From Nymphaea colorata (Eukaryota > Streptophyta > Magnoliopsida > Nymphaeales > Nymphaeaceae): DNA of 64,000 nucleotides. A model generated the notes under the pieces. That model did no database searches. It saw only the letters and a list, made by a program, of their open reading frames with translations, and had not been told where the DNA came from. A program made the translations under genes and the position numbers. Positions 781-64,000 of this stretch are shown here, piece after piece. How positions within the stretch are numbered: position 1 is the first letter of the stretch; each line of letters begins with the position of its first letter. Location: NCBI RefSeq assembly GCF_008831285.2, contig NC_045148.1, forward strand, positions 8,871,001 through 8,935,000. Direction: 5' to 3'.

Positions 781-2573
781 TCAAACACTTTCCACCATCA
801 ATCTCAGTATACTCTCTGCAGGATAATCTCTCCCTAGAAAACCATGACCATCTCCATGTTGATACATGAACTGTGCCATTCTTGCAACATTCAGGGCACA
901 ATGTACAAATGGGTGATTAGTGCCATTAGAAGTAGCTTCGGCACATTCATTATGGATTCTTTTCCAAGCATTTCTTAGCAGACCGTCAATATGTTGACGA
1001 GCAGCTTCCTCTGACACACTCGTCTCCTTCATGTAACACAGTATGCATTTGGGCACGTCTCCTCTTTCAATCTCATCCTTCAAAAAATGTAGGTAAAATT
1101 TTGTCACTTAAGAGGAAGAAAATCTCTACATATTAATTATTAGCTCATGAAGACAGTAACATGTGCAGTAATGGAGAAAAAAGATCTAGCGACAGACAAT
1201 TTATTTATAATTTGGAGAAAAAGTTATCTCTTCAATCAAACTAGATGAAGTTTTCAACAACTTATCATGTATCTTTCAAAATCAGATATTTTCTTAGCGT
1301 ATCTCAAATTATTTTTCAGTTAAAAAAGGAACAGAGGGTTGAGCTAAAATCTCCACTAAAAAAAGAGGGTTCTTTTCATACTTTTCCTTTCGTCTTGATT
1401 TATTTTGGAAGATGGAAAAAGTGAATGACCTTAGAAGTTCCAAGATCATCATGAAGCCGCACAACTAGGGATGACATCTTTATGAGGTTGGAGTAATGGT
1501 CTAAGCTCATGGCAGCATCTTCCTTCGTGTCATGCTGCAAAAAGACAATAATTGTGAACCAAACCCAGAGCTATTCCTAGAGAACCCCACGCATTATCCA
1601 AATATTCTTCCACTGTGGGCGTATGTCCATTGTAGAACCACTTTGCCTCCACCAAGTATGACTTGCCCTGATCAGCCCACTGGAACAAATGATGAATGTT
1701 AATTGCAAAGACTCTAAAAGGCCATGTCACTGAAATATGATAAATTTTAGTAAGTCAATATGTTATTAAGAAAGATAAATATATATTCACCGCTCTTGTC
1801 AAGTAGCCTAAGATGTTTTGACCTTTGTCCCGCATGAAATCATAGACAAATTGATTGGTTGTGTTAAAGAGCGCAAGGAAACACATCCGCATATACTGAG
1901 GAAGTTTATCAATATATCCAACATCCCATCTGCAAAATTCATTAATCCAGCAAATCAAGGAGGATCTGAATGGTTAATATATATCAAAGAATATGGAATA
2001 CATGATGAAGATGGTCTTGTGCCTGCCTATGGAGACAAATTAAGGATGTGTACTATTAGTAAGTTGATATAAACCAAAGAACAAAAAAAAGGTCGGACAG
2101 AGAATCGATGATTGATGTGGACTTCAATGTTCCACAAATAGCACTCCATCAACCTGTCCCTCTAAAATTTCAAGTTCTCTGCCAACACAAGGCCCCTCCA
2201 CCACCTAGAGAAGGTTAATTATTACAATGAATTGAATCAATGTTTGAAATTAGATTAGTTTATTATGATATATATGCGAATGAAGCAAACACATTTGCTT
2301 GGTATTACCAACCTTAACATCTCCTTCACTTCTGCTTGGTACAAAGACTGCACATTGTTGAAATCCAGCTTTGCAAGTTTGAGTAAACCAGAGTGGTGAC
2401 CAGGCATCCTTTCATAAACATCTATGTAGTTCCTTGCTTCTGTTCTAAGCATTCTTCTAGAAAGAGGGAGTTCCAAGGCATGAGTTACTTGTCATCCAAG
2501 GATGGAGTGTATGTTCAGCACCTTGGCACTTTCCTCGAGGTGATGGGTTGCGAAGGTCATTGCCTCATGGTAA
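781..2573 (-). pseudogene. Terpene synthase pseudogene A (DDxxD deleted, exons 1-2 missing)
   Basis: Remnant of a 7-exon terpene synthase, closest to locus B. Recognisable pieces: exon 7 at 781-1077, exon 6 at 1430-1679, exon 5 at 1791-1929, the 5' half of exon 4 at about 2093-2204, and the 3' part of exon 3 at 2313-2573. Lesions: (1) the 3' half of exon 4, which should encode DDVYD, is deleted together with adjacent intron; (2) exon 3 stops abruptly at about 2573 and continues into sequence that in B lies upstream of the gene, so exons 1 and 2 are gone; (3) exon 3 carries an in-frame TGA where B encodes the Arg of ARHVAHALE; (4) exon 6 is 250 bp instead of 249, a one-base insertion that ends the frame soon after VHNY. 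It cannot make a catalytic enzyme. Exon 7 and exon 5 are still open. Confidence 0.9.
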
Positions 2574-3104
2574 CAAAAAAATGAGCATCCCATTGTCGCT
2601 GGCGAGGCAAGGCTGGCGCCAATCCTCTGCAATGATGGGGAGGAACGACCTCCTCCCCTTTCATTGCCTTTTTCAGTTCTTAAGAAGAGGACGTCATGGG
2701 AGGTGACGATCACCTCTGTTTTATTTACTTTTGCAATGAAGGGAGGCTGTGCCTCTCCCATCGTCGGCAGTGGTCTGCCACGGCTACCTCCCCTCTATCA
2801 ACGCTCGCCGTCCGAGCATTTTTTTTTTAAGATAAACATCAAACTAGCATAGTGAAACGCTCAGCTGACAGAAAGAGAGAGAGAGGAAGAGCCAATAAAA
2901 TGAGAATTCATAGCAAAAATTAAAAGAAATTCCCTAAATAAATAAAACAAAATAGAGAATTTGTGGCAATAAGTTCCTTAAATAAAAGAACAAAATTTTG
3001 AGGAAATCTCCCGGATAAAAAAAGAAAAAGAAAAAATAAACAATTTGATGACAAGATAAACAAGAGAGAGAGAGAGAGAGAGGCTAAGGAAGGTAAGGAA
3101 TTAC
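2574..3104. other. Former upstream region of locus A, joined to exon 3
   Basis: No gene. From about 2575 the sequence matches 14112 onward, which is the leader intron of locus B: a GC-rich block, then AT-rich DNA and a GA microsatellite at about 3063-3082. This shows that the material between exon 3 and the leader intron was deleted from A. Confidence 0.7.
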
Positions 3105-3261
3105 ATGGTATGATATGGAAGCTGGGGTTCTGACAATGAATGACAAGCTTCAACTACTCTTGACTCGCAGTTCGCCTGACTCCTCCCTCAAGCCGGGGGT
3201 CGAGAAGAAGGTCCGAATGGTGGATGATTGATTGGCGTTAAAATGGGTTTGCCAGTTTATA
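3105..3261 (-). promoter_or_regulatory. Orphan promoter and leader exon of locus A
   Basis: Copy of the B promoter module. A TATA box (TATAAACTG, minus strand, 3253-3261) is followed about 30 nt downstream by a leader that ends at a possible donor, T then GTAATT, near 3105. The module is preserved although the gene it served has lost its coding exons 1 and 2. Transcription from it would run into the truncated exon 3. Confidence 0.5.
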
Positions 3262-10006: not shown

Positions 10007-13000
10007 TCAAACACTTTCCACCATCAATCTCAGTATACGCTCTGCAGGATAATCTTTTCCCGGAAAACCATGACCATCTCCATGTTGATACATGAACTGT
10101 GCCATTCTTGCAAGATTCAGGGCACAATGTACAAAAGGGTGACTAGTGCCATTAGAAGTAGCTTCGGCACATTCTTTATGGAGTCCTTTCCAAGCATTTC
10201 TTAGCAGACCGTCAACATGTTGACGAGCAGCTTCCTCCGACACACCCTTCTCCTTCATGTAACACTGTATGCATTTGGGCACGTCTCCTCTTTCAATCTC
10301 ATCCTTCAAAAAATTTAGGTAAAAATTTGTCACTGAAGAGGAAGAAAATCTCTGCATATTAATTATTCGATCATGAAGACAGTAATATGTGCGTCAATGG
10401 ATAAAAAAGATCTAGCCACAGACAATTTATATATAATTTGAGAAGAAGTTATCTCTTCAATCAAACATGATGAAGTTTTCAACAACTTATCATGTATCTT
10501 TCTAATAAAATATTTTCTTACCATATCTCAAATTATTTTTCAGCTAAAAAAGGAACAGAGTGTTCAGCTAAAATCTCAATTAAAAAAAGAGGGTTCTTTT
10601 CATTTTTTTTTAACTTTCGTCTTGTTTTGTTTTGGAAGATGGAAAAAGTGAATGAACCTTAGAAGTTCCAAGATCATTATGAAGCCGCACAACTAGGGAT
10701 GACATCTTTATGAGGTTGTAGTAGTGGTCTAAGCTCATGGCGGCATCTTCCTCCATGTCATGCTGCAAAAAAAAATAATTGTGAACCAAATCCAGAGATA
10801 CTCCTATAGAAACCCACGCATTGTCCAAATATTCTTCTACAGTGGGCGTATGTCCATTGTAGAACCACTTTGCTTCCACCAAGTATGACTTGCACAGATC
10901 AGCCCACTGGAACAAATGATGAATGTTAATTAAAAAGACTCTAACGGCCATGTCACTGAAATATGATAAATTTTAGTAAGTCAATATGTTATTAAGAAAG
11001 ATAAATATATATTCACCGCTCTTGTCAAGTAGCCTAGGATGTTTAGACCTTTGTCACGCATGAAATCATAGACAAATTGATTGGTTGTGTTATAGAGCGC
11101 AAGGAAACACATCCGCATATATTGAGGAAGTTTATCAATATATCCAACATCCCATCTGCAAAATTCATTAATCCAGCAAATCAAGGAGAATCTAAATGGT
11201 TAATATATATCAAAGAATATGGAGTACTTAATGAAGATGGTCTTGTGGGTGCCTGTGGAGACAAATTAAGGATGTGTACTATTTGTAAGTTGATATAAAC
11301 CAAAGAACAAAAAGGTGTCGGGATTTTCATATATTAAGAAGAATGCAATTTACATGGGGCAGCCTCCGTGGACCACTTAATTAATTACTTAGCCAACTTC
11401 TGTGTTCGGTCTATGAACATTAGCCTCTGACTGATATTAATGCCTTAGTTTATAATTTGTCTCGCTTCACTTTAATGCATACTCGAAAAGAAAGAGCCAG
11501 AGTCACATTTCCACATGCAGAATAAAACTTATGAAGTTTGATTATCTTGAGAAAACAAAAGAGAAAAAGATATAGTTGTGAACTGAATTCGTCAGCATGC
11601 ACTGCACTGACAGGCAACTGCTCATGAGATGCCCGGAAGTAAATTAAAGGAATGGAGGGGTTACTTGTCAACAGCCTCAGTGAATAGTTCTAGCTCATCA
11701 ATTGTGCCGTATACATCATAAACATCATCAATCGTCGTGATGAGGCAATTGAGTTTTGTGATACTTTTTCTACAGACAGAGAAGCGAGGATTGAAGTCGA
11801 CTCCTATGTTCCACAAATAGCACTCCATCAACCTGTCCCTTGAAAATTTCAAGTTCTCTGCCAACTCAAGGCCCCTCCACCACCTAGAGAAGATTAATTA
11901 TTACAATGAATTGAATCAATGTTTGAAATTAGATTAGTTTATTATGATATATATGCGAATGAAGCAAACACATTTGCTTGGTATTACCAACCTTAACATC
12001 TCCTTCACTTCTGCTTGGTACAAAGACTGCACATTGTTGAAATCCAGCTTTGCTAGTTTGAGTAAACCAGAGTGGTGTCCAGGCATCCTTTCATAAACAT
12101 CTATGTAGTCCCTTGCTTCTGATCTAAGCATCCTTCTAGAAAGAGGGAGTTCCAAGGCATGAGCTACGTGTCTCGCAAGGATGGAGTCTATGTTAAGCAC
12201 CTTGGCACTTTCCTCGAGGTGATGGGTTGCGAAGGTCATTGCCTCTTCCAATATGTTCTCCCCATCAAATCCTAGGTGTGAAGCTTCATACAAGCTCAAC
12301 AACCCCTTCACATCTTGTGCAAAGATGTTCTTAAATCTCCCTTTTTCATCCATAAATCTTTTAAAAACTTCTGTGACAATCCTCCACCAAGAAAACAAAG
12401 AAAAAGTTACAGTATGAGTATGAACTCAAAATCAATGAAAGTTCATCACATCAGTTTAACAAAGAAAGGATTATGTTGGAATATGCATCAATTCACCAGG
12501 GAAAGCACGATATCCATGTTGCCTCAACAATCTGAATCTAAGAGCTGCAGCATGGAGGTCCTCATATTCCTTGTTGTCTATGAAAATGGAATCCAGTACA
12601 ACTTTGATCTCCTTCTCAAATTGGTATGAAACTCCTAATCTTTGAAGGCTGTCGACGAGCTCCAGCTGAGCCACTGTCTCCTGGCAAGCTTCCACCATCA
12701 ATTGCTTCACGTCTTGTTTAATCTCCTCAATGTTCTCGCTTCCATGCCTGCCCTGGGTTGATCTCTTTCATGTAAATAACGTCAAAGAGGTAGAAAGCAA
12801 TGTATGATTATTATTCTTTTGTCTTAACCATTAAGTGTCAAGATGCATGACACTTATCCAGTAACAACATTTCAAACGACTTAATAAATAAACTTGAATT
12901 ACTTCTAATTAACCAACTGAAGGAGGACAGGAGCCAGCGGATCTAGAATCCGTTAAAATCTCATTGATTTTTTACAGAACGCACGACTAACACGAGGTTA

Positions 13001-13229
13001 AGTTGATGAGAAATTTTATACTGAAAAGAAAATTTTACCCATATGTGCTTCTCAGTGACAGGATGAGGTCATCTTTCCACGGGCTTGGTCCATAATTTCC
13101 CGATCGCCTCTGAGGGCTAAGTTGGCATCTACAGTAAGCTTTCATTCGGTAGCTCAACAGTTTTCTTGCTCTCTTTGCAGTAGATGTGGCACCCCATATA
13201 GTCCACACTGGTAAAGGCAAGGTGCTCAT
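10007..13229 (-). CDS. Terpene synthase B, plastid-targeted type, about 579 aa
   Basis: Class-I terpene synthase (mono- or sesquiterpene forming). Exons, in gene order: 13039-13229, 12497-12762, 11992-12370, 11665-11883, 11017-11155, 10658-10906 and 10007-10303, all with GT-AG borders; total 1740 nt. The first about 40 residues are Ser/Arg/Lys-rich with no acidic cluster, like a plastid transit peptide, followed by [11 protein letters not shown] (RRX8W). Exon 4 has RDR and IDDVYDVYG (Mg2+ and diphosphate binding). NDLGTSK at the end of exon 6 plus DE at the start of exon 7 completes NSE/DTE. Exon 7 ends near MVESV then TGA. Oddity: exon 1 has lost one base at its donor (TATGG then GTAAAA). 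With the acceptor that aligns to its sisters (exon 2 from 12764) the frame breaks; with the AG two bases further on (12762) it is restored with loss of one Arg. Product specificity cannot be read from sequence. Confidence 0.85.
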
Positions 13230-14618: not shown

Positions 14619-14775
14619 ATGGTATGATATGGAAGCTGGGGTTCTGACAATGAATGACAAGCTTCAACTACTCTTGACTCGCAGTTCGCCTGACTCCTCC
14701 CTCAAGCCGGGGGTCGAGAAGAAGGTCCGAATGGTGGATGATTGATTGGCGTTAAAATGGGTTTGCCAGTTTATA
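14619..14775 (-). promoter_or_regulatory. TATA box and untranslated leader exon of locus B
   Basis: TATA box TATAAACTG (minus strand, 14767-14775). The following about 120 nt contain no ATG until the donor itself (CCAT then GTAATT at 14618). The same module precedes A, D and G. Distance to coding exon 1 is about 1.4 kb. The inference is a 5' untranslated exon spliced to the acceptor just before the start codon. Confidence 0.55.
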
Positions 14776-20939: not shown

Positions 20940-22114
20940 CTTAGAAGTTCCAAGATCATGATGAAGCTGCATAATCATGTTTGAAGTAATGGTGTAGGTC
21001 CATCGCAGTATCTTCCTTCATGTCATGTTGCACGAGAAAATAGGCATGAACCAAGGTCCTGATATAGAAAACCATGCATTATCCACATATTCTTTTACAG
21101 TGGGTGTATATTCATTATAGAACCACTTTGCTTCCACACATTACAGGTCAGCCCACTACAATAGGTGAGAACTGTTAATTGTAGAGAAGCTATTAAAGAT
21201 AAAAGGAACAAATAAAGAACTTGCACTGGAGTTTTAGTTATCATAAATTTTAGTTAATTAATATGAAGCAAGACATTTACCACCCTTGCCAAGTAAATTA
21301 AGATGTTGGGGCCTTTGTCCCGCATGAAATCATAGGCAAATTGATTGATTATGTTATAGAGAGCTAGGAAACACAACCGCACGTACTGAGGAAGTTTATC
21401 AGTATATCCAAGTTCCCATCTGCAAGATTCACGAATCGGACAAATTAAGCAGGAATTAAAAAGATACTATCAGCAAAGATGAAGGAAATGATCGTGAATA
21501 AATTAAAATGGTTGTGCTACTGTGCCAATGCAAAGAAATTAAGCAAAAGAAAAGAATGTGCATAGGACAGTCTTATTTGTTGTCCAAATATTTTCACATG
21601 ACAACATAGACCCAAAATAAAAATAACAGTAAAAAATTTGATGTTTTACCAAGAATTTAATTTCATGGGTTTCTGCATATGAGCATGCCTCTTAATCAGA
21701 CCATTAATCAATTACTTGGCCTTCTAAATTTTCCTCTAAGTGCTTGCCTAATTATCTAGCTTCTCTTGCAAACGTTTGTAGTTTCTTGACACCAATGGCT
21801 TAATCTATGATTTCCTACACACAGGAAAAAGAGGATTGAAGATGACCCCTAGTTTTCCATCAACCCGTCCCTAGAAAACTTCAACTTCTCTACCAACTCA
21901 AGGTCCCTGCACCATCTAGAGAAATTAAATTAAGGATTGAAAAGAATCGATTCCGTGTTTCAAATCTAAGTTTATTTTGGTATCGGCAATCAAAAGAAAT
22001 GCATCGATCTGGTATTGCCGACCTTAACATCTCATTGACTTCTGCACGTTCTTACTCTCTTTTAATTTGCAAAGCGCTCCAAATGGCCCACACTGGTAGG
22101 GGCAAGACGCTCAT
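20940..22114 (-). pseudogene. Terpene synthase relic C
   Basis: Fragments in the right order: exon 6 at 20940-21155 (216 bp instead of 249, with several gaps), exon 5 at 21281-21419 (139 bp, still open, WELGYTDKLPQYV...), the 5' part of exon 4 at about 21826-21915 without DDxxD, the last about 24 bp of exon 3 (22023-22046), and the first about 45 bp of exon 1, with its ATG at 22112-22114. Exon 7, exon 2 and most of exons 1, 3 and 4 are missing. The exon 3 end is joined almost directly to the exon 1 start. Sequence flavour ([12 protein letters not shown] at the old leader acceptor) places it nearest to D and G. Confidence 0.85.
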
Positions 22115-25279: not shown

Positions 25280-28200
25280 TCAAACACTTTCCACCATTAG
25301 CTTCAGTATGGGCTCCACAGGATAATCTCTTTCCGCGAAACCATAAGCATCCCCATGTTGATACATGAACTGTGCCATTCTTGCGAGATTCAGGGCACAA
25401 TGTACAAGAGGGTGACTAGTGCCATTAGAAGTAGCTTCGGTGCATTCTTTATGGAGTTCTTTCCAAGCATTTCCTAGAAGACCATCAACATATTGACGAG
25501 CAGCTTCTTCTGACACACTCTTCTCCTTCATGTAACACTGTATGCATTTGGGCACGTCTCCTCTCTCAATCTCGTCCTTCATGAATGTAATGTAAGGAAA
25601 TTGACTTAGAAAGGAAATGTCTACAAATAAATTCGTAGACCAAGAAAGTAAGATGATTATTTACTCACAACTTATTTCAAATTTTTAGGATAAGTTATCT
25701 CCTTAGTCAAACAGATAGAAGTTTTAGCCAAATTGTCATCTGTTTTTCATCCTGATTCACCTTAAAAACATGTTTCTAAAAAACCAATTTCATCATGAAA
25801 ACAGATATCGTAAGTTGTTTGCTAACAGTTGTTTTAGATAAGTTTTACATGGATCATACATGACAGTTTAAATTACATCCAAAGTATATATCTTTTGAAA
25901 ACGCCAAATTGAAAAGGTAATAGTTTTTGATAGGAACACAAGTGACACTAAAAGTTTAATATAGCAAGAGTTTCTTTCTCATTCTATTGTTTTATTTTGA
26001 AGGTTAGGAAAAAGCGAATGAACCTTAGAAGTGCCAAGGTCATTTTGAAGCCGCACGGTGATGGAAGACTTCTTTATCAGGTTGATGTAATGGTCTATGT
26101 CCATGGTAGCGTCTTCTTTTATGGCATGTTGCATGAAGAAATAAGCATGGATAAGAAACACAGGTCCTGACATGGAAACCCATGCATTATCCAAGTATTC
26201 TTCTACGGTGGGTGTATATCCATTATAGAACCACTTTGCTTCCACTAAATATGCCTTGCACAGTTCAGCCCACTGTAATAAATGACGACTGTTAATTGCA
26301 GTGAATCTGAAAAAACTTAGTGTTGAAGTGCCATCATTTTTTTTTTGGGTAAATCAATACAAAATACCATGTCGTTAATAAAGATAAATGTATACTTACC
26401 GCTCTTGTCAAGTAGCCTAAGATGTTGCGGCCTTTGTCCCGCATGAAGTCATAGGCAAATTGATTGGTTGTGTTATAGAGAGCTAGGAAACACAATCGCA
26501 TGTATTGAGGAAGTTTATCAATATATCCAATTTCCCATCTGCATATTTCATGAACCCAACAAATTCAGGAGAAATTTAAGGATAATATCAGCGAAGATGA
26601 AGAACATGCTATTGAAGAAATTATAATGGTTGTGCTACTGCGCCAATGCAAAGAAATTAAGTAAAAGAAAGTGATGTGCATTGCATAGTACTCCTATTTG
26701 TTTGTGTAATACCTTCATAAGTTCACATAAACAAAAAGAAAAAGGAAATGGAAAAACTGTCAAAAGCTTGATGCTTTACCAAGAATTTAATTTTGTGGGC
26801 TTCTGCATATGAGCAAGCATCTTAACCAACAAATTAATTACTTGGCCTTCTCTATTTTCCTTTAAGTGCATGCCTAATTAATCTATGATTTGTCTCACAT
26901 CCAAAAAATAGAGAGCTATAATCATGAGTCTAAGTGCAAAAATATAATTGATAAAATTTTGTTTTTTTATAGAAATAGAGAAAAAGAGGAATGACTTAAT
27001 TTTTGGGTGAGCATGAAGAATATTTCATTCTACCTCTTAAATGACAGTTTTGTCTCTCTAAAGTACAAGACCTGCTTTCGACAACTTCACTAAACTTCAA
27101 CTTGGGTATTAATTGGCCCCCCATTTTGCAGCACAGAGTGTTGACACCCTGAAAATTTGAAATGAAAACTGGCCGCCTACCAGCCCCCACTCTAACAGAT
27201 ATGTCAACCCCCTCGGGGATGATAAATGATCTTAATTACTTGACATGACTAGCCCAATCATTGCAGAGCCGAGAAGTAAATTAAGAGCATGGAATTACAT
27301 TTCAACCTAAGAAGTAAATTAAGGGCAAGGACTTACTTTTCCACAACCTCACTGAACAGTTCTAACTCATCAAGTGTGCCATACACGTCATAAACATCAT
27401 CAATGGCGGTGATAAGGCAAGCGACTTTTGTAAGTCCTTTCCTACAGACAGAGAAAGGAGGATTGAAAATGACTCCTACAGCCCATAAATAATTGTCCAT
27501 CAACCTGTCCCTAGCAAATTTCAGGTTCGTTGCCAATTGAAGTTCCCTCCACCACCTAGATAGAGAAAATTAGTTATTGAAATGAATCGAATTAGTGAAT
27601 CAAATATAAGTTTATTTTGATATACATAAACAAAAGAAATTCATCAATTTGGTATTTCGGACCTCGACATCTCCTTCACTTCTGCTTGGTACAAAGACTG
27701 CACATTATTGAAATCAAGCTTTGCTAGTTTGAGTAAACAAGAGTGGTGCCCAGGCATCCTTTCATATAAATCTATGTAATTCCTCGCTTCTGATCTTAGC
27801 ATCCTTCTCGAAAGAGGGATCTCCAAGGCATGAGCAATCTGTATCGCGAGGGTGCAGTCTGAATTATTCGACTTGGTCGTACTTTCTCGGAGATGATGAG
27901 TTGTGAAGTCCATGGCCTCTTTCAATATGTGCTCCCCTTCAAATCTAAGATGTGAAGCTTCATACAAGTTCAGCAACGCCTTTAAATCTTCTGCAAGGAC
28001 ATTTCTAAATCTGCCTCTTTCATCCACAAATACTTGAAAAACATCTGTGACAGTACATCACCAAAAAAAAAAAAAGGAAAAAGTTGGACTAGATACTTAG
28101 AACAAAAGTTTATGCATTAATCAGAAAAAATACATACGCTAATTTATAATATTTACCCGGAGAAGCATGATAGCCATGTTGCCGCAGCAATCGGAATCTA

Positions 28201-28742
28201 AGAGCTACAAAGTATAGGTCTTCACATTCCTTTCTGTCTTCGAAAATGCAGTCCATTACAAGTTTGATCTCCTTCTCAAAGTGGTATGAAACTCCTAACC
28301 TTTGGAGATCATCCACGAGCTCCATCTGAGCCACTGGCTCGTCGCGACCTTCCAGCACTTGCCTCACATTTTGTTTAATCTCCTCAATGTTCTCGCTGCC
28401 ATGGTCATCCTGCCGTGATCTCTTTCAGTTAATTAACCATTACCGAAACAAGCCAGTGTAGAAAAATAACATGCGATCATTATATATTATTAGCATGCTT
28501 AACCATCTAAGTGTGAAGATGCAGCATACATGGATATTTCAGCAAAAAATGAAACAACTGATTGCTGAATTAGTTCTAGACAACTGAATGAGGAGAGTGG
28601 TAGATCTAGAGTCCGTTGAAATTTGACAAGCTTTTGTATAGGAACGACTTACCTCGTGTGTGCTTTTCAATGACTGGATGAGATCATCTGTCCACCGGCT
28701 TGGAGGATAGTTCCCCGAACGTCTCTGAACTGGTTGAGACAT
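25280..28742 (-). CDS. Terpene synthase D, without transit peptide, 546 aa
   Basis: Complete 7-exon class-I terpene synthase. Exons in gene order: 28653-28742, 28157-28421, 27663-28044, 27337-27555, 26400-26538, 26024-26272 and 25280-25576; 1641 nt, all GT-AG, phases consistent throughout. It starts MSQPVQ directly before [11 protein letters not shown] (RRX8W), so it lacks the targeting peptide of B, E and F and is probably cytosolic. The N-terminal alpha-barrel is exons 1-3. The catalytic alpha-domain has RDR (exon 4), IDDVYDVYG (exon 4) and NDLGTSKDE across the exon 6/7 junction. Exon 7 contains [10 protein letters not shown] and ends MVESV then TGA. The start was chosen because the aligned ATG of the other loci is ATA here, and the next ATG is two codons downstream. 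Cytosolic location would favour farnesyl diphosphate as substrate, but that is inference. Sister gene: G. Confidence 0.92.
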
Positions 28743-29824
28743 GGTGCTTATGCTTATGCAAACATGGAATTCACTAATCAATTTCTTTGTTAAAAAAACA
28801 AAAAGACCACATTAATTAATTTCATAAAGAACAGTAACGAATTATATGTGTACAATCAGTCTCCCCTTCTCTAACTCTCTCTATACCGCCTGCGTGGTTG
28901 ATATTGCTTGTACTTGAGCATTTAATATATGAGTTAAGGATCTGGAAGAAAAGGGATCTCGAACCATAAGTAAATTAACCTAGCTAAGGCGGAGAGAAAT
29001 TAAGAGGGGAGGCAGACGGGCAGTCCGAAGGGGCAGAGCAAAGAGTCACAATGTTGTTTAAAACATCATAAACCATCACTATATAGTAAATGATTGCTAA
29101 TACTGTGGTTATGTGATATTTTTTGCCAGGGTTTATAAATATTTTATCATTTCATAATCGAATATGAGGTAGATGAGATAAGTTGTAATAGAAATCAAAC
29201 TATTTTTTAAAGAACCTGATATACCCCTCAAACGGGACGAGGGTTTTCATTTGAGAAAACTCATTTATTTTCCTTTTTTGTCTTATAAACGGTATCTTAG
29301 GGTTTTAGTTTAAGGAAACTCATTTATATCCCCTTCTTTTCTCTGTTTTTTCTCTTATAAATGTGTCCTAGACTTTTGAAAAAACAGATTGGCTTTTCTA
29401 CTTATAACTTAGATTCTTAAAATCGATGGCCAAGATGGTTTTCATTAAATTTGGTACTCTCTCTCTCTCCACCTCGCCCCACCCCCCCCCCCACCCCCCT
29501 CTCTATACCAATGCACCACCATAAAACATAAAACACTGAGTAAATAATGGAATACATAGTTCTGTCATATAAAAAAACTCAGAAAGAACACCAAAAAAAA
29601 ATCATCTTTTCCCAATGCTGTTGTGGTGTTTTGTGTGGGAGACAGAACAATGGGTTCTAATCCCGAACATCATGTGATGCCCCTTATCAGGAGGATGAGC
29701 TGCAATGTAGCGAGCTACATGCCTGCAGCCACTTGGGTCACGCCCTCTAGCTTGAGTCACAGGACTTGAGAACTCAAACATATGCATGGTAGAGATTAGA
29801 GAAGCTGGGAAAGCAATGAATTAC
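28743..29824 (-). other. Probable leader intron of locus D
   Basis: About 1.07 kb between the leader donor (CAC then GTAATT) and coding exon 1. The acceptor seen in B, E and F (TTTGCAG) is TTTGCAT here; the nearest substitutes are the AAG triplets 10-16 nt before the ATG. It includes a poly-C/CT stretch at about 29460-29505. No coding exon. Confidence 0.45.
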
Positions 29825-29994
29825 GTGATATGATATGCAAGTTGGGTGCTGATGCTCGATCAGAAGCTTCAACTCTGCTGTTCCTCCCTCGCACTTCTCC
29901 TGATTTCTCCTTCTAGCTGGTTGATCAGAACAATGATCAAGGTAGGTGGGTAGATGATTCAATATTTTGTGCTCACAAGGGTTCCCTATTTATA
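29825..29994 (-). promoter_or_regulatory. TATA box and leader exon of locus D
   Basis: TATAAATAG on the minus strand (29986-29994), about 30 nt upstream of an ATG-free leader of about 140 nt that ends at CAC-GTAATT. The leader is nearly identical to the one upstream of G (59809-59978) and related to those of A and B. An open frame of 62 codons runs through it in D and G but starts with TTG, so I read it as untranslated. Confidence 0.55.
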
Positions 29995-31640: not shown

Positions 31641-32473
31641 GATACCGGCTCGTCTGAGAGCAACTCAGCGTTCCCCTTCTCCGGCAATAATTGCTTGAAA
31701 ATCTTTCTTAAGATTTTATTGCTTCCTTCGTAATTTACAAGATTCTATTGCAACGAGCTGGTCGCCGACATATGCACTCCCTAATCTGTCATAGAATCCC
31801 GTACTCTGCATCGAGGAAGCGGTAAATATCGGTTGACCATTTATGTTTTGTAGACAGCTAATCAAAAGTAGTGCCGACTTCAATATCGGCATGTATCATA
31901 AGTTGAATCGTTTCAGAAATTCATATGCATTACTTTACTTGGCAAGAAATTAATATCTTAATGTGAACTCCTGGCCTCTTTCCTAAGTACTTTGAAACAC
32001 GCAGAAAAGAAATTATATTGTTGTTATCCATCTAACAAGGGGCCAATATAAGTCCAATTTTCCATGTCTGGGCCAAAGATAAAAAGGTAATGAAGTCTTT
32101 CCTTAATCAACTTTAGCAGCACCGGTACTATGCGTCTTTGGGTGAATGGGAAGAGAATCTCACCACCCGAGCAAGGGCTGAACCCCGTTCTTCCCCACCA
32201 TTACTCGCACAGTCTGATGCTGCTTGATGTCATACATCTTTAATTAATGGGCCACTTACTAAACAAGTGCTCATGCTTCTGTGTCCAGGGCCAAGCAAAA
32301 ATTTTTCTGCCATCTGGATTGGGCAGGGATGGGATAAGATGTTGAGATGTTCCTCATAGGGTGCTGGACTTGTCGGTTGGCTAAGGGACAGTTGCAGAAC
32401 AAGAAGCAGAGAATAAAGAAGACGATACGTAGGTTTTTCAATCGATCGCTAAAACGACGTACAACTTTCTCGA

Positions 32474-34410: not shown

Positions 34411-36750
34411 AGCTCTTGTCATGTAGCCTAGGATGTTGAGGCCTTTGTCCCGCATGAATTCGAAGGCAAATTGGTTGGTTGTGTTATAAAGAGCTAGGAA
34501 ACACATCCGCCGCATGTACTGAGGAAGTTTATCGATGTATCCAATGTCCCATCTGCAAAATTCGTGAATTCAGCAACTCAAGTAAAAATTAAAAGGATGA
34601 AACTTGAGAAAAGGAAAACAGAATGAAGGAAATGGTTGTGTGGCTGCCTATATATGCAAAAAAACATAATTAAGAAGATATGAATTTTTATCAGTTTCTT
34701 AGGACCTATTAAGTAACTGGCTTTCTTTACTTAATTTATTGCGTAAGAGCCTCAGCAGGTTTCTCTTGCAAACATCAGCTTCCTCACATTAGTGTCAATT
34801 TATAACATTATCACAAATATCCTTCAGTTTCCTCTCCCTGACCAATAAGTACGAATCTAAATTGTGCCATAATCAGAATCCTATATGCAGAAATGGAATA
34901 GATAAAGTTTGATTTTTCTGAGAAAAAAAAAATATTCTGGATCGCTTAGCCGGTTGGCATTCAGTACTGATGTCCAAATGCTTATAACATGCCAAGAAGT
35001 AAAGAAGGCATCGTGGAGTTACCTGTCAACAGCCTCTGTGAACAGTTCTAGCTCATCAATTGTACCATACACATCATAAACATCATCGATAGTCGTGATG
35101 AGGCAATTGAGTTTCGTATGACCCTTTCTACAGACAGATAAAAGAGGATTGAAGTTGACTCCTATGGTACACACGTAGTTCTCCATCAATCTGTCCCTCG
35201 AAAATTTTAAGTTCTCTGCCAACTCAAGGCCCCTCCACCACCTGGAGAAGATCAATTGTTACAATGAATTGGATAGTTAATGTTTCAAATTATATAAGTT
35301 TAGGTGATGTAAGAAAAAGAAATGCATCTACTGTTACCAAGTACCTTAACATCTCCTTTATTTCTGCTTGGTACAAAAACTGCACATTATTGAAATCCAG
35401 CTTTGCCAATACAAAAACTGCACATTATTGAAATCCAGCTTTGCCAATCTGAGTAAACCAGAGTGGTGTTCAGGCTTCCCTTCATAAAAATCTATGTAAC
35501 TCCTTGCTTCCGACCTAAGCATCCTTCTTGAAAGTGGAAGCTCCAAGGCATGTGCTACCTGCTTCCCAAGGCTGGAATCTAAGTTCAGCATCTTGGCACT
35601 TTCCTTGAGGTAATAAGTTGTCAAGGTCATGGCCTCTTCCAATATGTTCTCCCCTTCGAGTCCTAGATGTGAAGCTTCATACAGGCTCAGCAACCCCTTC
35701 ACGTCTTCTGCAAGGATGTTCTTGAATTTCCCTGTTTCGTCCTTAAATACTTTAAAAACATCTGTGACGATCCAAACAAGAAAAGGTCACGCTATGAACT
35801 CAAAAATTAATGAAAGTATGTTCCTTCATATTATAAACCAAGATTAATATTTACCATGGGAGGCAGGATAACCGTGTTGCCTCAGCAATCTGAATCTAAG
35901 AGCTGCAGCATGGAGGTCTTCACATTCCTTTCTGTCTTCGAAAATGGAGTCCATTACAACTTTGATCTCCTTCTCAAAGTGATACGATACTCCTAACCTT
36001 TGGAGGGTATCCAAGAGCTCCATCTGAGCCACTGGCTCATGGCAAGCGTCCACCATTAATTGTTTCACGTCTTCTTTGATCTCCTCAGTGTTATCGCTTC
36101 CATGCTTGCCCTGCATTGATCTCTTTCGATTAAAGAAAACAAAGCGGCTCTAGAGTAATACGTATATGTCTATTAATATTTCTTAGACCATCTAAGCGTG
36201 AAGATGCATATATGCACGAATCCTCTAACAACTGAAACAACCGATCGTAATCTTTGAATTAATTCTTTACCAATAGAATGAGGACAGGTGCTTGCTAAGG
36301 ATGTCAATGTATCTGATTACAATCAGATATCGGACATGAATGTAAAAATCTGATTCAGACCATATTTCAATTTCAGATTTGACTTTTCTTCATTGTATTT
36401 GAATCCAAATTCAAAACTCAATATGCTAAAAAAGTATTTAGAGTTATGAATATATTTTCTTCAAATCCAATCTGTTGACCAGCACAAATATGAAATCTTT
36501 ATAAAGGTTTTATTTATTTTGTATAACAACAATTTACCTCGTGTGTGCTTCTTAATGAGAGGATGAGATCATCTTTCCACTGGCTTGGCCCATAATTCCC
36601 CGAGCGTCTTTGAACCGGTGCTTCTACAGCTTGAGGGCTAAGCTGGCATCTCCAAGACGCTTTCTTGCGAGCACTCAACCGTGCTGTTGCTCTCTTCGGC
36701 GTAGCCGAAGCACCCAGTATAGTCCACGGTGGTAATGACAAGGAGCTCAT
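34411..36750 (-). pseudogene. Terpene synthase pseudogene E (exons 6-7 deleted, exon 3 frameshift)
   Basis: Exons: 1 at 36538-36750 (71 codons, with a Ser/Arg/Lys-rich transit-like region and [11 protein letters not shown]), 2 at 35855-36122, 3 at 35345-35761, 4 at 35023-35241 (IDDVYDVYG intact), 5 at 34411-34552 (one extra codon, MRRM). Exon 3 is 417 bp because a 38-bp stretch (35372-35409) is repeated in tandem (35410-35447), which shifts the frame. Exons 6 and 7, with NSE/DTE and the C-terminus, are absent: 3'-flank sequence equivalent to that of H runs directly into intron 5 at about 34343. Intron 1 contains a GGATGTCAA element (36299-36482), shared with F. The gene is recent, since all other exons are clean. 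Confidence 0.92.
36299..36482. mobile_element. GGATGTCAA element inside intron 1 of E
   Basis: About 184 bp. Begins GGATGTCAATG and ends CTGTTGACC. A short relative of the 415-bp element at 6138. It is also present in intron 1 of F (43656-43825), but not in B, D or G, so it marks a common ancestor of E and F. Confidence 0.45.
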
Positions 36751-36792
36751 GTTTCTGCAAATGCGACACTAACTGGTGTTGACAAGGGTTCC

Positions 36793-36805
36793 CTATTTAT
36801 TATAA
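36793..36805 (-). promoter_or_regulatory. TATA box of locus E, fused next to exon 1
   Basis: TTATAATAAATAG (minus strand) followed by GGAACCCTTGT, the same words as in the D and G promoters. It lies only about 45 nt before the ATG at 36750. The TTTGCAG of the old leader acceptor still precedes the ATG. The leader exon and almost all of the leader intron have been deleted. Confidence 0.6.
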
Positions 36806-40821: not shown

Positions 40822-43800
40822 TCAAACACTTTCCACCATCAATCTCAGTATACGCTCTGCAGGATAATCTCTTCCCGGAAAACCATGACCATCTCCATGT
40901 TGATACATGAACTGTGCCATTCTTGCAAGATTCACGGCACCAATGTAGAAGAGGGTGACTAGTGCCATTAGCAGTAGCTTCTGTGCATTCTTTATGGAGT
41001 TCTTTCCAGGCATTTCTTACAAGACCATCAACATACTGACGAGCAGCTTCCTCCCACACACCCTTCTCCCTCTTGTAACACTGTATACATTTGGGCACGT
41101 CTCCTCTCTGAGTCTCATCCTACATGATGGAAATGAAATTGACTTAGTGAAAGATAATCTCTACAAATTAATTCTTAGATCAAGACTAGTAAGGCGGGTT
41201 TGAATGAATGAGAAAACTTTTGCTGACAAACAATTTATTTCTATTTCAATCATGGAGTTGTCTATTGCCGGATCTCTCAATTAAGTTAATTTGATAATTT
41301 TTTAAGGTGGATTTTAGTCCCCACTTGGCCTGGCGTACTTTCTTTTAAGATATTTCTCTTTTTTTTTCTTTATGATATTTGCTTCATTTTTTAAGCCATT
41401 TTGTTTTTATTCTTTTGCATTTTAAGGGCATTTTAGTCTTTTGGCTTAAAGCATGAACTTTACTATATGTTGGACTTAATTTTCATCATATTGGTATCTC
41501 AAACAAAAAAGTCTTTTTCTTGAATTCATATCTAAATATGATCAGGTTTTTCTTGCTATAGCTCAAATTATAATTAAGTAAAAAAGGTACTAAAAAAATT
41601 AGAGATAAGCACCTTAGAAGTTGCGACATCATCATGAAGCCGCAGAATCCACGAAGAAATCTTTATAAGGTTGGGAAAATGGTGTAGGTCCACGGCAGCA
41701 TGTTCCTTCATATCATGTTGCACAAGAAAATAAGCATGAATCAAGATCACAGGTCCTGATTTGGAAACCCATGCATTATCCAAGTATTCTTCTACTGTGG
41801 GTGCAAATCCATTATACAACCACCTCGCTTCCACCAAATATGCCTTGCATAGATCACCCCACTGTAACAGATGACGATTATCAATTTAATTACATTGTAG
41901 AGAATCTAAAAAAATTAGGGCCGAAATGTTATCATAAATTTTGGCAATTTAGTATAAAGTGTATCACTATTAATAAATATATATTTAACGCTTATGATGT
42001 TGAGGCCCTTGTCCCGCATGAATTCGTAGGCAAATTGGTTGATTGTGTTATAAAGAGCTAAGAAACACATCCGCATGTACTGAGGAAGTTTATCGATGTA
42101 TCCAATATCCCATCTGCAAAATTCGCAAATTCAGCAACTCAAGTTAAAAATTAAAGGATCAAACTTGAGAAAAGGAAAACACAATGAAGGAAGTGGTTGT
42201 GCCGCTGCCTATATATGCGGAGAAATTAATTAGAAAAAGAAAAAGAAGTGCTCAGATCGTTTTTTTTTTTTTTGCATACAAATATGGACACAAGTTGATA
42301 TAAACCAGAGAATATAGGTCTAAAATTGTAATATTTTTAAGAAGATATCAATTTTTATCAGTTTCTTAGGACCTATCAAGTACCTGGCTTTCTTTACTTA
42401 ATTAGTTTCTTAAGAGCCTCAGCAGGTTTCTCTTGCAAACATCAGTTTCCTCACATTAGTGTCAATTTATAACACTATCACAAATATCCTTCAGTTTTTT
42501 CTCCCTGACCAATAAGTAAGAATCTAAATTGTGGCATAATCAGAATCCTATATGCAGAAATGAAATAGATAAAGTTTGATTTTTCTGAGAAAAAGGAAAT
42601 ATTCAGGAACACTTGGTCGGCATTCAGTACTGATGTCCAAATGCTTATAACATGCCGAGAAGTAAATTATAGGCATGGAGGAGCTACCTTTCAACAGCCT
42701 CTGTGCACAGTTCTAGCTCATCGATTGTACCATACACATCATAAACATCATCGATAATCGTGATGAAGCGATGGAGTTTTGTAAGACCCTTTCTACAGAC
42801 AGAGAAAAGAGGATTGAAGTTGATTCCTATGGTCCACACATAGTTCTCCATCAATCTGTCCCTTGAAAATTTCAAGTTCTCTGCCAACTCAAGGCCCCTC
42901 CACCACCTGGAGAACAATTGTTACAAAGGATTGAATAATTGATGTTTCCAATTATATAAGTTCAGCATCTTTGCACTTTCCTTGAGGTGATAAGTTGTGA
43001 AGGTCATGGCCTCTTCCAATATGTTCTCCCCGTCGAATCCTAGATGTGAAGCTTCATACAGGCTCAGCAACCCCTTCACGTCTTCTGCAAGGGTGTTCTT
43101 GAATTTCCCTCTTTCGTCCTTAAATACTTTAAAAACTTCTGTGACGATCCACCACCAGGAAAAATAAGAAAAGTCAGGGTATGAACTCAATAACTAATGA
43201 AAGTCTGTTCCTTCGGTTTACAAACCAAGATGAATATTTACCAGGGGAGGCAGGATAACCGTGTTGCCTCAGCAATCTGAATCTAAGAGATGCAGCATGG
43301 AGGTCTTCACATTCCTTACTGTCTTCGAAAATGGAGTCCATGACAACTTTGATCTCCTTCTCAAAGTGGTATGATATTCCTATTCTTTGGAGGGTATCCA
43401 GGAGCTCCATCTGAGCCACTGGCTCATGGCAAGCGTCCACCATTAATTGCTTCACGTCTTCTTTGATCTCCTCAATGTTATCGCTTCCATGCTTGCCCTG
43501 CGTTGATCTCTTTCGGTTAAATAAAACAAATCCGTTATAGAGTAATCGCTATATGTTTATTACTATTTCTTAAACCATCTAAGCCTGAAGATGCATATAT
43601 GCATGAATCCTCTAACAACTGAAACAACCGATCGTAATCTTTGAATTAATTCGAAGGATGTCAATGTATCTGATTTCAATTGAGCATAAAAATCCGATTC
43701 AGATCATATTTCAAATTTAGATATGACTTCTCATCATTGTATTTGAATATGGATTCAAATCTCAATATGCAAAAAAAATGTTTACAATTAAAAATATATT

Positions 43801-44102
43801 TTCTTCAAATCCGATCAGTTTACCAGCACAAATTTGAAATCTTTAAATAAGTTTCATTTATTTTGTATAACAACAATTTAACTCGTATGTGCTTCCTAAG
43901 GAGAGGATGAGGTCGTCTTTCCACTGGCTTGGCCCATAATTCCCCGAGCGTCTTTGAACCGGAGCTTCTACAGCTTGAGGGCTAAGTTGGCATCTCCAGG
44001 AAGCTTTCTTGGGAGCACTCAACCGTGCTGTTGCTCTCTTCCGGTTAGCCAAAGCATCCAGTATAGCTGTATAGCCCACGGTGGTAAAGACAAGGCGCTC
44101 AT
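40822..44102 (-). pseudogene. Terpene synthase pseudogene F (many lesions)
   Basis: Exon pieces: 1 at 43882-44102, 2 at 43242-43509, 3 (5' part only) at about 42961-43138, 4 at 42688-42906 (IDDVYDVYG intact), 5 at about 41990-42113, 6 at 41613-41861 (open, ending HDDVATSK), 7 at 40822-41119. Lesions: exon 1 is 8 bp longer than in E, a frameshift from a small tandem duplication; its donor is GAG-TTAAAT where E has GAG-GTAAAT; the 3' half of exon 3 and its donor are deleted into intron 3, removing the RRMLR region; exon 5 lost 15 bp at its 3' end; exon 7 has a one-base insertion (298 bp) that breaks the frame. Intron 1 holds the GGATGTCAA element at 43656-43825. The promoter is gone, replaced by a copia element. 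Confidence 0.93.
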
Positions 44103-55131: not shown

Positions 55132-58100
55132 TCAAATGCTTTCTACCATTAGCTTCAGTGTGCGCTCCACGGGATAATCTCTTTCTGGGAAACCATAACC
55201 ATCCCCATGTTGATACATGAACTGTCCGACTCTTACAAAATTCAAAGCGAAATGTACAATGGGGTGACTAGTAGCACCAGCAGCCTCCGCCCATTCTTTA
55301 AGGAGTCCTTCCCAAGCATTTTTTAGTCGACCATCAAAATGGTGACGAGCAGCTTCTTCTGACACACTCTTCTCCTTCATGTAACACTGTATGCATTTGG
55401 GCACGTCTCCTCTCCCAATCTCGTCCTTCATGAATATAAGGAATTTGACTTAGAAAGGAATTGTCTACAAATAAATTCGTAGACCAAGAAAGTATGAAGT
55501 GTTTGAATAGAGTAATTACTCACGTACAATTTATTTCAAATTTTTATAATAACTTTATCTCCTTAGTCAAACATACAGAAGTTTTAACCAAATTATCATG
55601 TGTCTTTCATCCTGATTCACCTTAAAAGCATGTTTCTAAAAAACCAATTTCATCCTGAAAATAGATATCGTAAGTTGTTTGGTTACAGTTGTTTTAGATA
55701 AGATTCACATGCATCATACATGACGCAGTTTAAATTGCATCCAAACTATATATCTCTTGAAAACGCCAAGTTGAAAAATAGGAATACCAGTGACACTAAA
55801 AGCTTAATATAACAATAGTTTCTTTCTCATTCTCTGGTTTTATGTTGAAGGTTAGGGAAAAGAGAGTTCACCTTACAAGTTCCAAGGTCATTTTGAAGCC
55901 TCACCATCATGGAAGACTTCTTTATCAGGTTGAAGTAATGGTCTACATCCATGGTAGCGTCTTCTTTTATGTCATGTTGCATGAAGAAATAAGCATGGAT
56001 TAAAACCAGAGGTCCTGATATGGAAACCCATGCGTTATCCAAGTATTCTTCTACCGTGGGTGTATATCCACTATAGAACCACTTTGCTTCCACTAAATAT
56101 GCCTTGCAGAGTTCAGCCCACTGTAATAAATGAGGATTGTAAATTGCAATGAATCTGAAAAAACTTAGTGTTGAATACCATCATAATTTTCTTTTTGGGT
56201 AAGTCAATACGAATTACCATGTGGTTAATAAAGATAAATGTATACTTACCGCTCTTGTCAAGTAGCCTAAGATGTTGGGGCCTTTGTCCCGCATGAAGTC
56301 ATAGGCAAATTGATTGGTTGTGTTATAGAGAGCTAGGAAACACAATCGCATGTATTGAGGAAGTTGATCAATATATCCAATTTCCCATCTGCAAAATTCA
56401 TGAACCCAACAAATTCAGGAGAAATTGAAGGATAATATCAGCGAAGATGGAGAACATGATATTGAAGAAATTAAAATGGTTGTGCTACTGCGCCAATGCA
56501 AAGAAATGAAGTAAAAGGAAAAGATGTGCATAGGATAGTACTCCTATTTGTTCTTGTAATACCTTCACAAGTTGACATAAACAAAAATGGAAAACTGTCA
56601 AAAATTTGACGCTTTACCAAGAATTTTATTTCGTGGGCTTGTGCATATGAGCAAGCCTCTTAATCAGACCAATTAGTTTCTTGGCCTTCCCAATTTTCCT
56701 CTTAGTGCATGCCTAACTAGCAGGATTCTTTGGCGGACATTAGTAGTTTCTTGACATCACTGGCCTAATTAATCTATGATTTGTCTCACCTCTATAAAAT
56801 ATTAAACTATAATCACAAGTCTATGTGCAAAAATGTTATCGATAAACTTTTGTTTTCTTATAAAAATAGAGAAAAAGATGAATGACTCAATTTTGGTGAG
56901 GAGAATGTGTATTTGATTCTACCTCCTACATGAGCTTCATCCTCCTAATGTACCGAGTGTGCTTTCGGTGCCTCGAGATGCCAACTCCATCACAGTTCAA
57001 CTTATATATTAAGTGGTTCTTCTTTGCATGACAAATAGTTGATACGTCCAGAATTCTAAATAAAAACTTGCCACCTAGCAGCAACTATCTCAACTGCTAC
57101 ATCAGCCCCCTCTAGAACGAGAAATGACCTTAATTACTTGACATGACGAGCCCAATCATTGCAGAGCTAAGAAGTAAATTAGGAGTTAAAAAGTAAATTA
57201 AGAGCATGAAATTACTTTTCCAGCAAAGAAGTAAATTAAGGGCAAGGAATTACTTTTCGACAGCTTCACTAAACAGTTCTATCTCATCAAGTGTGCGGTA
57301 CACGTCATAAACATCATCAATAGTCGTGACAAGGCAACCGACTTTTGTAAGTCCTTTCCTACAGACAGAGAAAAGAGGATTGAAAATGCCTCCTACAGTC
57401 CATAAATAGCTGTCCATCAACCTGTCCCTAGCAAATTTCAAGTTCTCTGCCAACTGAAGACCCCTCCACCACCTAGCTAGAGAAAATTAATTATTGAAAT
57501 GAATCAAGTTAATGAATCAAATATAGGTTTATTTTGATATGCATAAACAAAAGAAATGCATCAATTTGGTATTCGGGACCTTAACATCTCCTTGACTTCT
57601 GCTTGGTACAAAGACTGCACATTATTGAAATCTAGCTTTGCTAGTTTGAGTAAGCAAGAGCGGTGTCCAGGCCTTCTTTGATACGAATCTATGTAATTGC
57701 TCGCTTCCAATCTTAGCATCCTTCTCGAAAGAGGGAGCTCTAAGGCTTGAGCTATCTGTCTCGCAAGGATGCAGTCTGAATTATTCATCTTGGTCATACT
57801 TTCTCGGAGATGATTTGTGAAGTCCATGGCCTTTTTCAATATGTGCTCCCCTTCAAATCTAAGATGTGAAGCTTCATACAAGTTCAGCAACCCCTTTAAA
57901 TCTTCTGCAAGGATGTTGCTAAATCTGCCTCTTTCATCCACAAATACTTCAAAAACATCTGTAACAGTATATCACCAGAAGAAAGTAGGAAAAGGTTGGA
58001 CTAGATACTGAGAGCAAAAGTTTATGCATTAACCAAAAAAAACATACGCTGATTGATAATATTTACCAGGAGAAGCATGATAGCCATGTTGCCGCAGCAA

Positions 58101-58651
58101 TCGGAATCTAAGAGCTGCAAAATATAGGTGTTCACATTCCTTTCTGTCTTCGAAAATGCAGTCCATTGCGACTTTGATCTCCTTCTCAAAGTGGTATGAA
58201 ATTCCTAACCTTTGGAAGTCATCCACGAGCTCCATCTGAGCCACTGGCTCGTCGCGACCTTCCAGCATTTGCCTAACATTTTGTTTAATCTCCTCAATGT
58301 TCTCGCTGCCATGGCCATCCTGCCGTGACATCTTTCAGTTAATTAACTATTACCAAACAATCCAGTTTAGAAAAATAACATACGATCATTACATATTATT
58401 GCATGCTTAACCATCTGAGTCTGAAGATGCAGCATACATGAATATTTTCACTAACAAATGAAACAACTGACTGCCCTGAATTAGTTCTTAACAACTGAAC
58501 GAAGAGGGGTAGATCTAGAATCAGTTGAAATTTCACCAGCTTTTGTATAGGAACTGCTTACCTCGTGTTTGCTTTTCAATGACAGGATGAGATCATCTGT
58601 CCACTGGCTTGGCGGATAGTTCCCCGAACGTCTCTGAACTGGTAGAGACAT
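55132..58651 (-). CDS. Terpene synthase G, without transit peptide, 544 aa
   Basis: Complete 7-exon terpene synthase, sister of D. Exons in gene order: 58562-58651, 58067-58331, 57580-57958, 57254-57472, 56250-56388, 55872-56120 and 55132-55425; 1635 nt, all GT-AG, phases consistent. It begins MSLPVQ directly before [11 protein letters not shown], so no targeting peptide. RDR and IDDVYD are present in exon 4; the residue after DVY is Arg where D, B, E and F have Gly. NDLGTCK at the end of exon 6 joins DE of exon 7, so NSE/DTE is complete. Exon 7 is one codon shorter than in D and more diverged ([17 protein letters not shown]). Exon 3 has one codon fewer than D. Likely cytosolic. Activity is probable but less certain than for D because of the Arg substitution and faster change in exon 7. 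Confidence 0.9.
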
Positions 58652-59808: not shown

Positions 59809-59978
59809 CTGATATGATATGCAAGTTGGGTGCTGACGCTCGATCAGAAGCTTCAACTCTGCTGTTCCTCCCTCGCACTTCTCCTGATTTCTCCTTCTAG
59901 CTGGTTGATCAGAACAATGATCAAGGTAGGTGGGTAGATGATTCAATATTTTGTGCTCACAAGGGTTCCCTATTTATA
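59809..59978 (-). promoter_or_regulatory. TATA box and leader exon of locus G
   Basis: TATAAATAG (minus strand, 59970-59978) and an ATG-free leader ending CAG-GTAATT, a better donor than the CAC-GTAATT of D. Nearly identical to 29825-29994. Confidence 0.55.
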
Positions 59979-62849: not shown

Positions 62850-64000
62850 TCAAACACTGTCCACCATCAATCTCAGTATACGCTCTGCAGGATAATCTCT
62901 TCCCGAAAAACCATGACCATCTCCATGTTGATACATGAACTGTGCCATTCTTGCAAGATTCAGGGCACAATGTACAAGCGGGTGACTAGTGCCATTAGAA
63001 GTAGCTTCTGTGCATTCTTTATGGAGTTCTTTCCAAGCATTACTTAGAAGACCATCAACATAATGACGAGCAGCTTCCTCCGACACACCCTTCTCCCTCA
63101 TGTAACACTGTATACATTTGGGCACGTCGCCTCTCTCAATCTCATCCTGCAAGATGGAAATGAAATTGGCTTACTAAAGGAAAATCTCTAATAATTAATT
63201 CTTAGATCAAGACTAGGAAGGGCGGGTTTGAATGAATGAGAAAACTTTTCCTGACAAACAATTTATTTCTATTTCAATCATGGAGGAGTTATCTATTGCC
63301 GGATCTCTCAATTAAGCTATTTGATAGTTTTTGAAGGTGGATTTTAGTCCCCACTTGGACTGGGGTACTTTCTTTTAAGCTATTTCTCTTTTTTTTCTTT
63401 AGGATACTTGTTTCTTTTTTTAGGCCTTTTTGTTTTTTTTAGTCTTTTGGCTTAAAGCATGGACTTTACTATAGGTAGGACTTAATTTTCATCATATTGA
63501 TATCTCAAATTAATATATTCATGCGATTTCAGAGGCTTTCCAAACAAAAAGCCTTTTTCTTGAATTCATATCTAAATAAGATCAGGTTTTTCTTGCTATT
63601 GTTGAAATTATAATTAAATCAAAAAGGTACTAAGAAAATTAGAGATAAGAACCTTAGAAGTTGCAACATCATCATGAAGCCGCAGAATCCTGGAAGACAT
63701 CTTTATAAGGTTGGAAAAATGGTGTAGGTCCACGACAGCATCTTCCTTCATATCATGTTGCACAAAAAAATAAGCATGAACCAATATTTCAGGTCCTGAT
63801 ATGGAAACCCATGCATTATCCAAGTATTCTTCTACTGTGGGTGCATATCCATTATAAAACCACCTCGCTTCCACCAAATATGCCTTGCATAGATCAGCCC
63901 ACTGTATCATATGACGACTATTAATTTAATTATATTGTAGAGGATCTAAAAAAATAGCGCTGAAATATTATCATAAATTTTTGGCAAATTAGTATAAAAT
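62850..64000 (-). CDS. Terpene synthase H, 3' part (exons 7 and 6), cut by the window end
   Basis: Exon 7 at 62850-63146 (297 bp) and exon 6 at 63653-63901 (249 bp), both open with good GT-AG borders. Exon 6 starts [19 protein letters not shown] and ends HDDVATSK; with DEIERGD of exon 7 this gives an NSE/DTE motif of the DDVATSKDE type, shared with F, while B, D and G have NDLGT. Exon 7 contains [13 protein letters not shown] and ends MVDSV then TGA. Exons 1-5 lie beyond the window. Nothing in the visible part is broken. Among the visible genes it is closest to F, and its 3' flank also matches E. Confidence 0.87.

Follow-up and report, generated by a model that had tools for sequence, protein, structure and literature searches.

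We examined a window of 64,000 nucleotides of the Nymphaea colorata genome and identified a tandem array of eight TPS-b terpene synthase copies (A to H), all of them on the minus strand, as are the gene features reported below. The number of copies was taken from a tblastn search of the exons of D against the whole window, and we grouped the matches into eight copies. Three copies were intact and had complete seven-exon models in which every intron was GT-AG: B (10007..13229; 574 aa), D (25280..28742; 542 aa, six introns) and G (55132..58651; 540 aa). Copy E (34411..36750) had a frame break in exon 3, and its exons 6-7 were not found. Copy F (40825..44102) was a pseudogene with a frameshifted presequence, a first donor changed from GT to TT, shortened matches to exons 3 and 5 and a frameshift in exon 7. 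Copy A (784..3261) was also a pseudogene, in which exons 1-2 were not found and stops occurred in exons 3-4. Copy C (20940..21914) was a broken fragment comprising exons 4-6 only, while copy H (62853..63901) showed exons 6-7, and its remainder would fall beyond the window edge. Exon 1 was visible in five copies, namely B, D, E, F and G.

The Pfam domains of D corresponded to the terpene synthase N-terminal domain (PF01397, on the ORFs of exons 2 and 3) and to the metal-binding C-terminal domain (PF03936, on the ORFs of exons 6 and 7). The RRX8W motif was found near the N-terminus in all 5 copies with a visible exon 1, and the DDVYD and NDLGT(S/C)KDE motifs were present in B, D (as NDLGTSKDE) and G. 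The closest solved structures by sequence were isoprene, camphene and limonene synthases. The best PDB match scored 486 bits (isoprene synthase, 3n0f), versus 355 bits for the best entry of aristolochene-synthase type; we take these entries to be TPS-b and TPS-a, respectively, and on that reading the copies of the array would stand nearer TPS-b than TPS-a. An isoprene synthase identity, as the best match might suggest, was rejected: the Phe at the poplar F338 position, which is present in 3n0f, was absent from the five copies compared, the residue being Asn (B and E), His (F), Ala (D) or Gly (G). A role of this Phe in isoprene synthase has been described (PMC8247113). Finally, a Pfam scan of ten non-TPS ORFs gave a match in one of them; a plus-strand ORF near F (45658-46074) matched Pol_BBD (PF22936, E 2.5e-19) and represents a retrotransposon fragment.

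We then compared the N-termini of the copies. Exon 1 of D (28653..28742) runs from the ATG at 28742 to a GTAAGT donor. The six residues before RRX8W that the earlier note had read in D and G were recovered in both gene models (MSQPVQ in D and MSLPVQ in G). Its long leaders in B and E were recovered as well, although the exact figures are 40 residues in B and 47 in E instead of 40-45 in both. The 40 residues of B include 8 Ser/Thr, 7 Lys/Arg and no acidic residue, and the presequence region of F contains its frameshift. The 5' end of B could be matched to a segment of D (28729..28781) along 53 bases with no gaps, which ends in ACCAGT and contains the old codon 1 as ATA (28751-28749). The identity over this match was 43/53 for D and 44/53 for G, and the match scores (33 and 35, respectively) were well separated from the shuffle maxima (15 and 17), with none of the 2000 single-base shuffles run for each copy reaching its score. 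In a five-way MAFFT alignment, the leader of D and G had instead been aligned with the second (3') half of the presequence of E; this placement was rejected because 3'-half placements in E or B score only 5-7, against 33-35 for the 5' placement on B.

The junction lies between ACCAGT and TCAG inside exon 1 of D. Downstream of ACCAGT, D and G continue with TCAGAGACG, where E has TCAAAGACG downstream of ACCGGT and B has GTGGACT downstream of its own ACCAGT. The reading that ACCAGT runs in D and G straight into the words that follow ACCGGT in E is thus borne out, and so is an in-frame loss of the targeting region: compared with E, D and G miss 38 codons (114 bases; codons 9-46 in E numbering). 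The proposal that this deletion took place between short direct repeats stands in part, since the deletion is real and the repeats are a 5/6 match (ACCAGT and ACCGGT) drawn from two different copies, the letters strictly common beside the join being GT. The two repeat words never occur together in one visible copy: B has the 5' ACCAGT but no longer contains the piece in which the 3' word would lie, and E has ACCACC at the 5' position and ACCGGT at the 3' position. Matches of this quality are rare in the leaders: among in-frame 6-mers at least 60 bases apart, 5/6 matches were found in 1 of 975 B-E comparisons, which was the ACCAGT/ACCGGT pair itself, in 8 of 975 E-E comparisons and in 3 of 513 B-B comparisons. 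A repeat-mediated deletion is plausible on this evidence, and the loss of the targeting region in one common ancestor of D and G is well supported.

The presequence of B was also shortened, by a deletion that is independent of the one in D and G: relative to E, the 21 bases encoding QAVEAPV are gone at about 13110-13124, with microhomology of TCA type. One stretch of presequence was therefore hit twice in the array, and, given that PVQ is kept in D and G, their deletion did not begin from the present sequence of B.

The deletion, which the earlier note had given as the N-terminal change in D and G, is not the only one, since the start codon has also moved. Codon 1 of the long form, an ATG in B, E and F, reads ATA in D as well as in G. 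The ATG available to these two copies is the old codon 4, which is TTG in B and E. The 53 bases directly 5' of this ATG in D (28743..28795, a segment other than the one aligned with B) were 98.1% identical to G. We also detected, about 1.1 kb upstream of exon 1 of D, a block with a TATA box and a predicted 5' leader exon (29825..29994) ending in a GTAATT donor. Corresponding blocks were found in G (59809..59978), in B (14619..14775; about 71% identity to D over 114 bases) and in A (3105..3261; also with a GTAATT donor at its end). Between D and G, identity reached 98.4% over the 182-base TATA/leader block (29808-29989 in D), compared with 85.0% in the interval separating that block from the 53-base upstream segment and 83-91% in introns 1-6. 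We predict that the block comprises a promoter and a 5' leader exon, and the 5' UTR of D, G and B is likely to contain an intron of about 1-1.4 kb. A sigma-70-type promoter scan, of a kind ill-suited to plants, gave no match. In E, 19 bases (36782-36800) are identical to the TATA region of D and G, and the ATG of E follows about 30 bases later, which looks like the outcome of a deletion of the leader exon together with its intron. Finally, a block of about 90 bases occurs twice upstream of D (30261-30349 and 31825-31913, about 1.56 kb apart) and a third time in the interval that separates exon 1 of B from its leader block (about 13472-13557).

An N-terminal transit peptide, the mark of the plastid-targeted type, was not found in D or G, which have six residues before RR and no ATG in the leader block. 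Judged by their N-termini, the two proteins would resemble the cytosolic TPS-b sesquiterpene synthases, which have no transit peptide, and a cytosolic location is very likely. That a transit peptide was lost in D and G we hold to be highly probable.

We next considered the active site. One alignment column, which we take to be the equivalent of SfCinS1 N338 and MsLimS N345 from full-length numbering and chain offsets, held Asn in B (Asn319, codon AAT, 11748..11750) and E, His in F, Ala in D (Ala287, codon GCT, 27420..27422) and Gly in G (Gly286, codon GGT, 57337..57339). The column is not diagnostic, because it holds N (2/6), F (2/6), T (1/6) or I (1/6) among the six aligned reference enzymes. 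At a second column, 579, D and G share Tyr, a residue that 0/6 of the reference enzymes have there, and B, F and H have His; this position is reported to vary among H, F and Y (PMC10563020). In SfCinS1, the N338A replacement widens the pocket and lets in FPP (PMC10992375, PMC8247113). The same mutant nonetheless strongly favours GPP, and it is N338C that has the lower KM for FPP (PMC8247113). The description of N338A as strictly GPP-using was made against NPP and has no bearing on FPP (PMC6707142). The pocket change in D and G would thus permit the use of FPP rather than prove it, because the N338A mutant remains far more efficient with GPP, and we give about even odds to FPP use by these two copies.

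The best-surviving alternative is that D and G are cytosolic and yet essentially monoterpene synthases, with GPP or dual use and no real change of substrate. It would agree with the intact RRX8W of both copies, with isoprene and monoterpene synthases as the nearest solved relatives and with the preference of SfCinS1 N338A for GPP (PMC8247113), as well as with the greater affinity of LaBERS and AmGAS for GDP than for FDP (PMC4940680). It has to be set against the small residue that D and G each have at a pocket position occupied by Asn in B and E, and against the TPS-b enzymes without a transit peptide in Table 1 of PMC4940680, all of which use FPP, although that table covers multi-substrate enzymes only and GPP is used too. 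We regard this alternative as a serious one that falls short of even odds.

The state of the two genes bears on a second alternative, in which D and G are decaying and the loss of the presequence was part of pseudogenisation. Both reading frames are intact and all 12 introns are GT-AG. The dN/dS ratios were 0.43 (D-G), 0.27 (D-B) and 0.26 (G-B), each below 1 by Fisher test (p 6.6e-6, 1.3e-21 and 1.6e-24, respectively), and the exon alignments of D and G contained 6 gapped columns, made up of a one-residue gap (3 columns) in exon 3 and another in exon 7, compared with 153 in introns 1-6. These observations, together with the 98.4% identity of the promoter and leader block, argue against decay. 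In its favour are the four broken neighbours (A, C, E and F), the D-G ratio, which is the highest of the three, the Arg that follows DDVYDVY in G, where B and D have Gly, and a diverged stretch in exon 7 of G. In this stretch (about 55225-55325), approximately 100 bases of G reached no more than 70-80% identity with any of the five further copies that have exon 7, while B, H, F and A were 86-96% identical to D in the same region; either conversion from an unseen copy or fast change may be responsible. The D-G identity was 89.5% in exon 4 and 86.1% in exon 7, which is not above that of the introns. Conversion of exon 7 of D by a B/H-like copy had also been considered and was dropped, as stretch-by-stretch counts pointed to G as the divergent copy. 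Overall, we consider decay of D and G improbable.

The earlier note had named two findings that would speak against the loss. The first, an upstream exon supplying a transit peptide in the D/G transcripts so that nothing was lost, gains some plausibility from the conserved exon-like block about 1.1 kb upstream: a leader exon seems to exist. However, an ATG was found in 0/4 of the leader blocks (A, B, D and G). We read the B leader as spliced, by prediction, to the AG directly before AAGCATG; this AG is AT in D and G, in which candidate acceptors are left at distances of 10, 4, 31 and 42 bases on the 5' side of the new ATG. With predicted splicing to either of the two nearest AGs, the joined message has no ATG ahead of the new one, and with either of the two farther ones a single upstream ATG appears 23 bases before it, opening a short and out-of-frame reading. 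The acceptor 42 bases before the ATG gives no in-frame stop in the 60 codons examined, which speaks for this alternative, but the 163 gapped columns between D and G from the leader block to exon 1 speak against it. We therefore judge an upstream transit peptide very improbable.

The second was an outgroup with the short form as the ancestral state, and none was found, in a test that is weak because it involves two chains with possible tags and an array root at 49%. The DNA tree of exon pieces from all eight copies grouped D with G (100%), C with D and G (93%) and E with F and H (100%). In the protein tree with six outgroup segments, D and G fell outside B, E, F and H, with a support of only 49%, which is also the support of the root among B, D/G and E/F/H. 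Two PDB chains had long N-termini: RR lies near residue 53 of 607 in the citrus limonene synthase 5uv0_A and near residue 77 of 639 in the terpinolene synthase 9no6_A. Both may include tags, and the other chains are cut. TPS-b monoterpene synthases are as a rule made with a plastid presequence. The ancestral status of the long form rests on these two chains, on that rule and on parsimony, and Asn is the likely, not proven, ancestral state of the pocket position in D and G because of the 49% support at the array root. That the short form is ancestral and B, E and F gained their presequence would suit the position of D and G in the protein tree, but it requires an in-frame insertion of 38 codons, rich in Ser/Arg and poor in acidic residues, and runs against the long reference chains, possible tags included, and the usual presence of presequences in this group, so that we give it hardly any credence.

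The explanation that we prefer, with a probability of about 0.72, is a presequence deletion and a start shift that gave rise to cytosolic, FPP-taking D and G. Under this explanation, D and G would go back to a single TPS-b gene of the monoterpene-synthase type, and an in-frame loss of 114 bases, probably at the ACC(A/G)GT microhomology, would have shortened the presequence of that gene. The old start codon would have become ATA, with translation moving to the new ATG at the old codon 4, in an order of steps that we infer. The resulting proteins, starting 6 residues before RRX8W and without a transit peptide, should stay in the cytosol. The predicted promoter and leader, the reading frames and the catalytic motifs have been kept in both genes, and the active sites have been altered (probably Asn to Ala in D and to Gly in G); with these features kept and the pocket changed, D and G would therefore be cytosolic synthases taking FPP. 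Within this explanation, we put at about even odds that the two enzymes produce sesquiterpenes in the plant from FPP, which they would probably use in addition to GPP. More tentatively, the array as a whole may be a stepwise record of a natural switch of compartment and substrate, running from a single microhomology deletion through the relocation of the start and of the leader acceptor to the opening of the pocket by Ala or Gly and to cytosolic FPP-derived products. If this holds true, D and G would be natural counterparts of the SfCinS1 N338 mutants.

Several known systems can be compared with this array. In Arabidopsis, AtTPS02 and AtTPS03 (At4g16730 and At4g16740) are a beta-ocimene and alpha-farnesene synthase, and their localisation is said to differ, one having and the other lacking a transit peptide (PMC4940680). 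They resemble the present case in being a TPS-b pair with neighbouring locus numbers and a transit peptide in one member only. They differ from what is proposed for D and G in that both are listed with GPP and FPP products, and the part of PMC4940680 that treats them mentions no deletion footprint of the D/G kind. In the carrot TPS-b cluster of chromosome 4, DcTPS26 represents a compartment switch by transit-peptide loss; the account of it in the relevant part of PMC7705728 mentions no breakpoint, start-codon shift or pocket residue, as opposed to those of D and G. The lavender bergamotene synthase LaBERS and the sandalwood santalene synthases are TPS-b enzymes, like D and G. For these enzymes it has been suggested that an ancestral monoterpene synthase lost its plastid signal and either came to accept a wider range of substrates or adapted its active site (PMC4940680). 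They have listed products, while D and G are known from their genes and have a long copy as a neighbour within their array. SfCinS1 N338A has the same exchange, Asn to Ala, at the same pocket position as D relative to B, but it is a laboratory mutant, whereas D and G occur in nature and have further differences. More broadly, 22 angiosperm TPSs with noncanonical substrate or localisation have been reported (PMC6593445). Among the matches listed, no terpene-synthase paper title or abstract start described transit-peptide loss by deletion between repeats.

That TPS-b genes can change compartment by losing the transit peptide is already known, and what is unusual here is the legibility of the steps. 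The shift from plastid GPP to cytosolic FPP has often been inferred from separate gene pairs, whereas in this array the long and short copies adjoin. The breakpoint, the inactivated start codon and the altered pocket position can all still be read, so that an exchange of 38 codons, or of a single residue, would put each step to the test.
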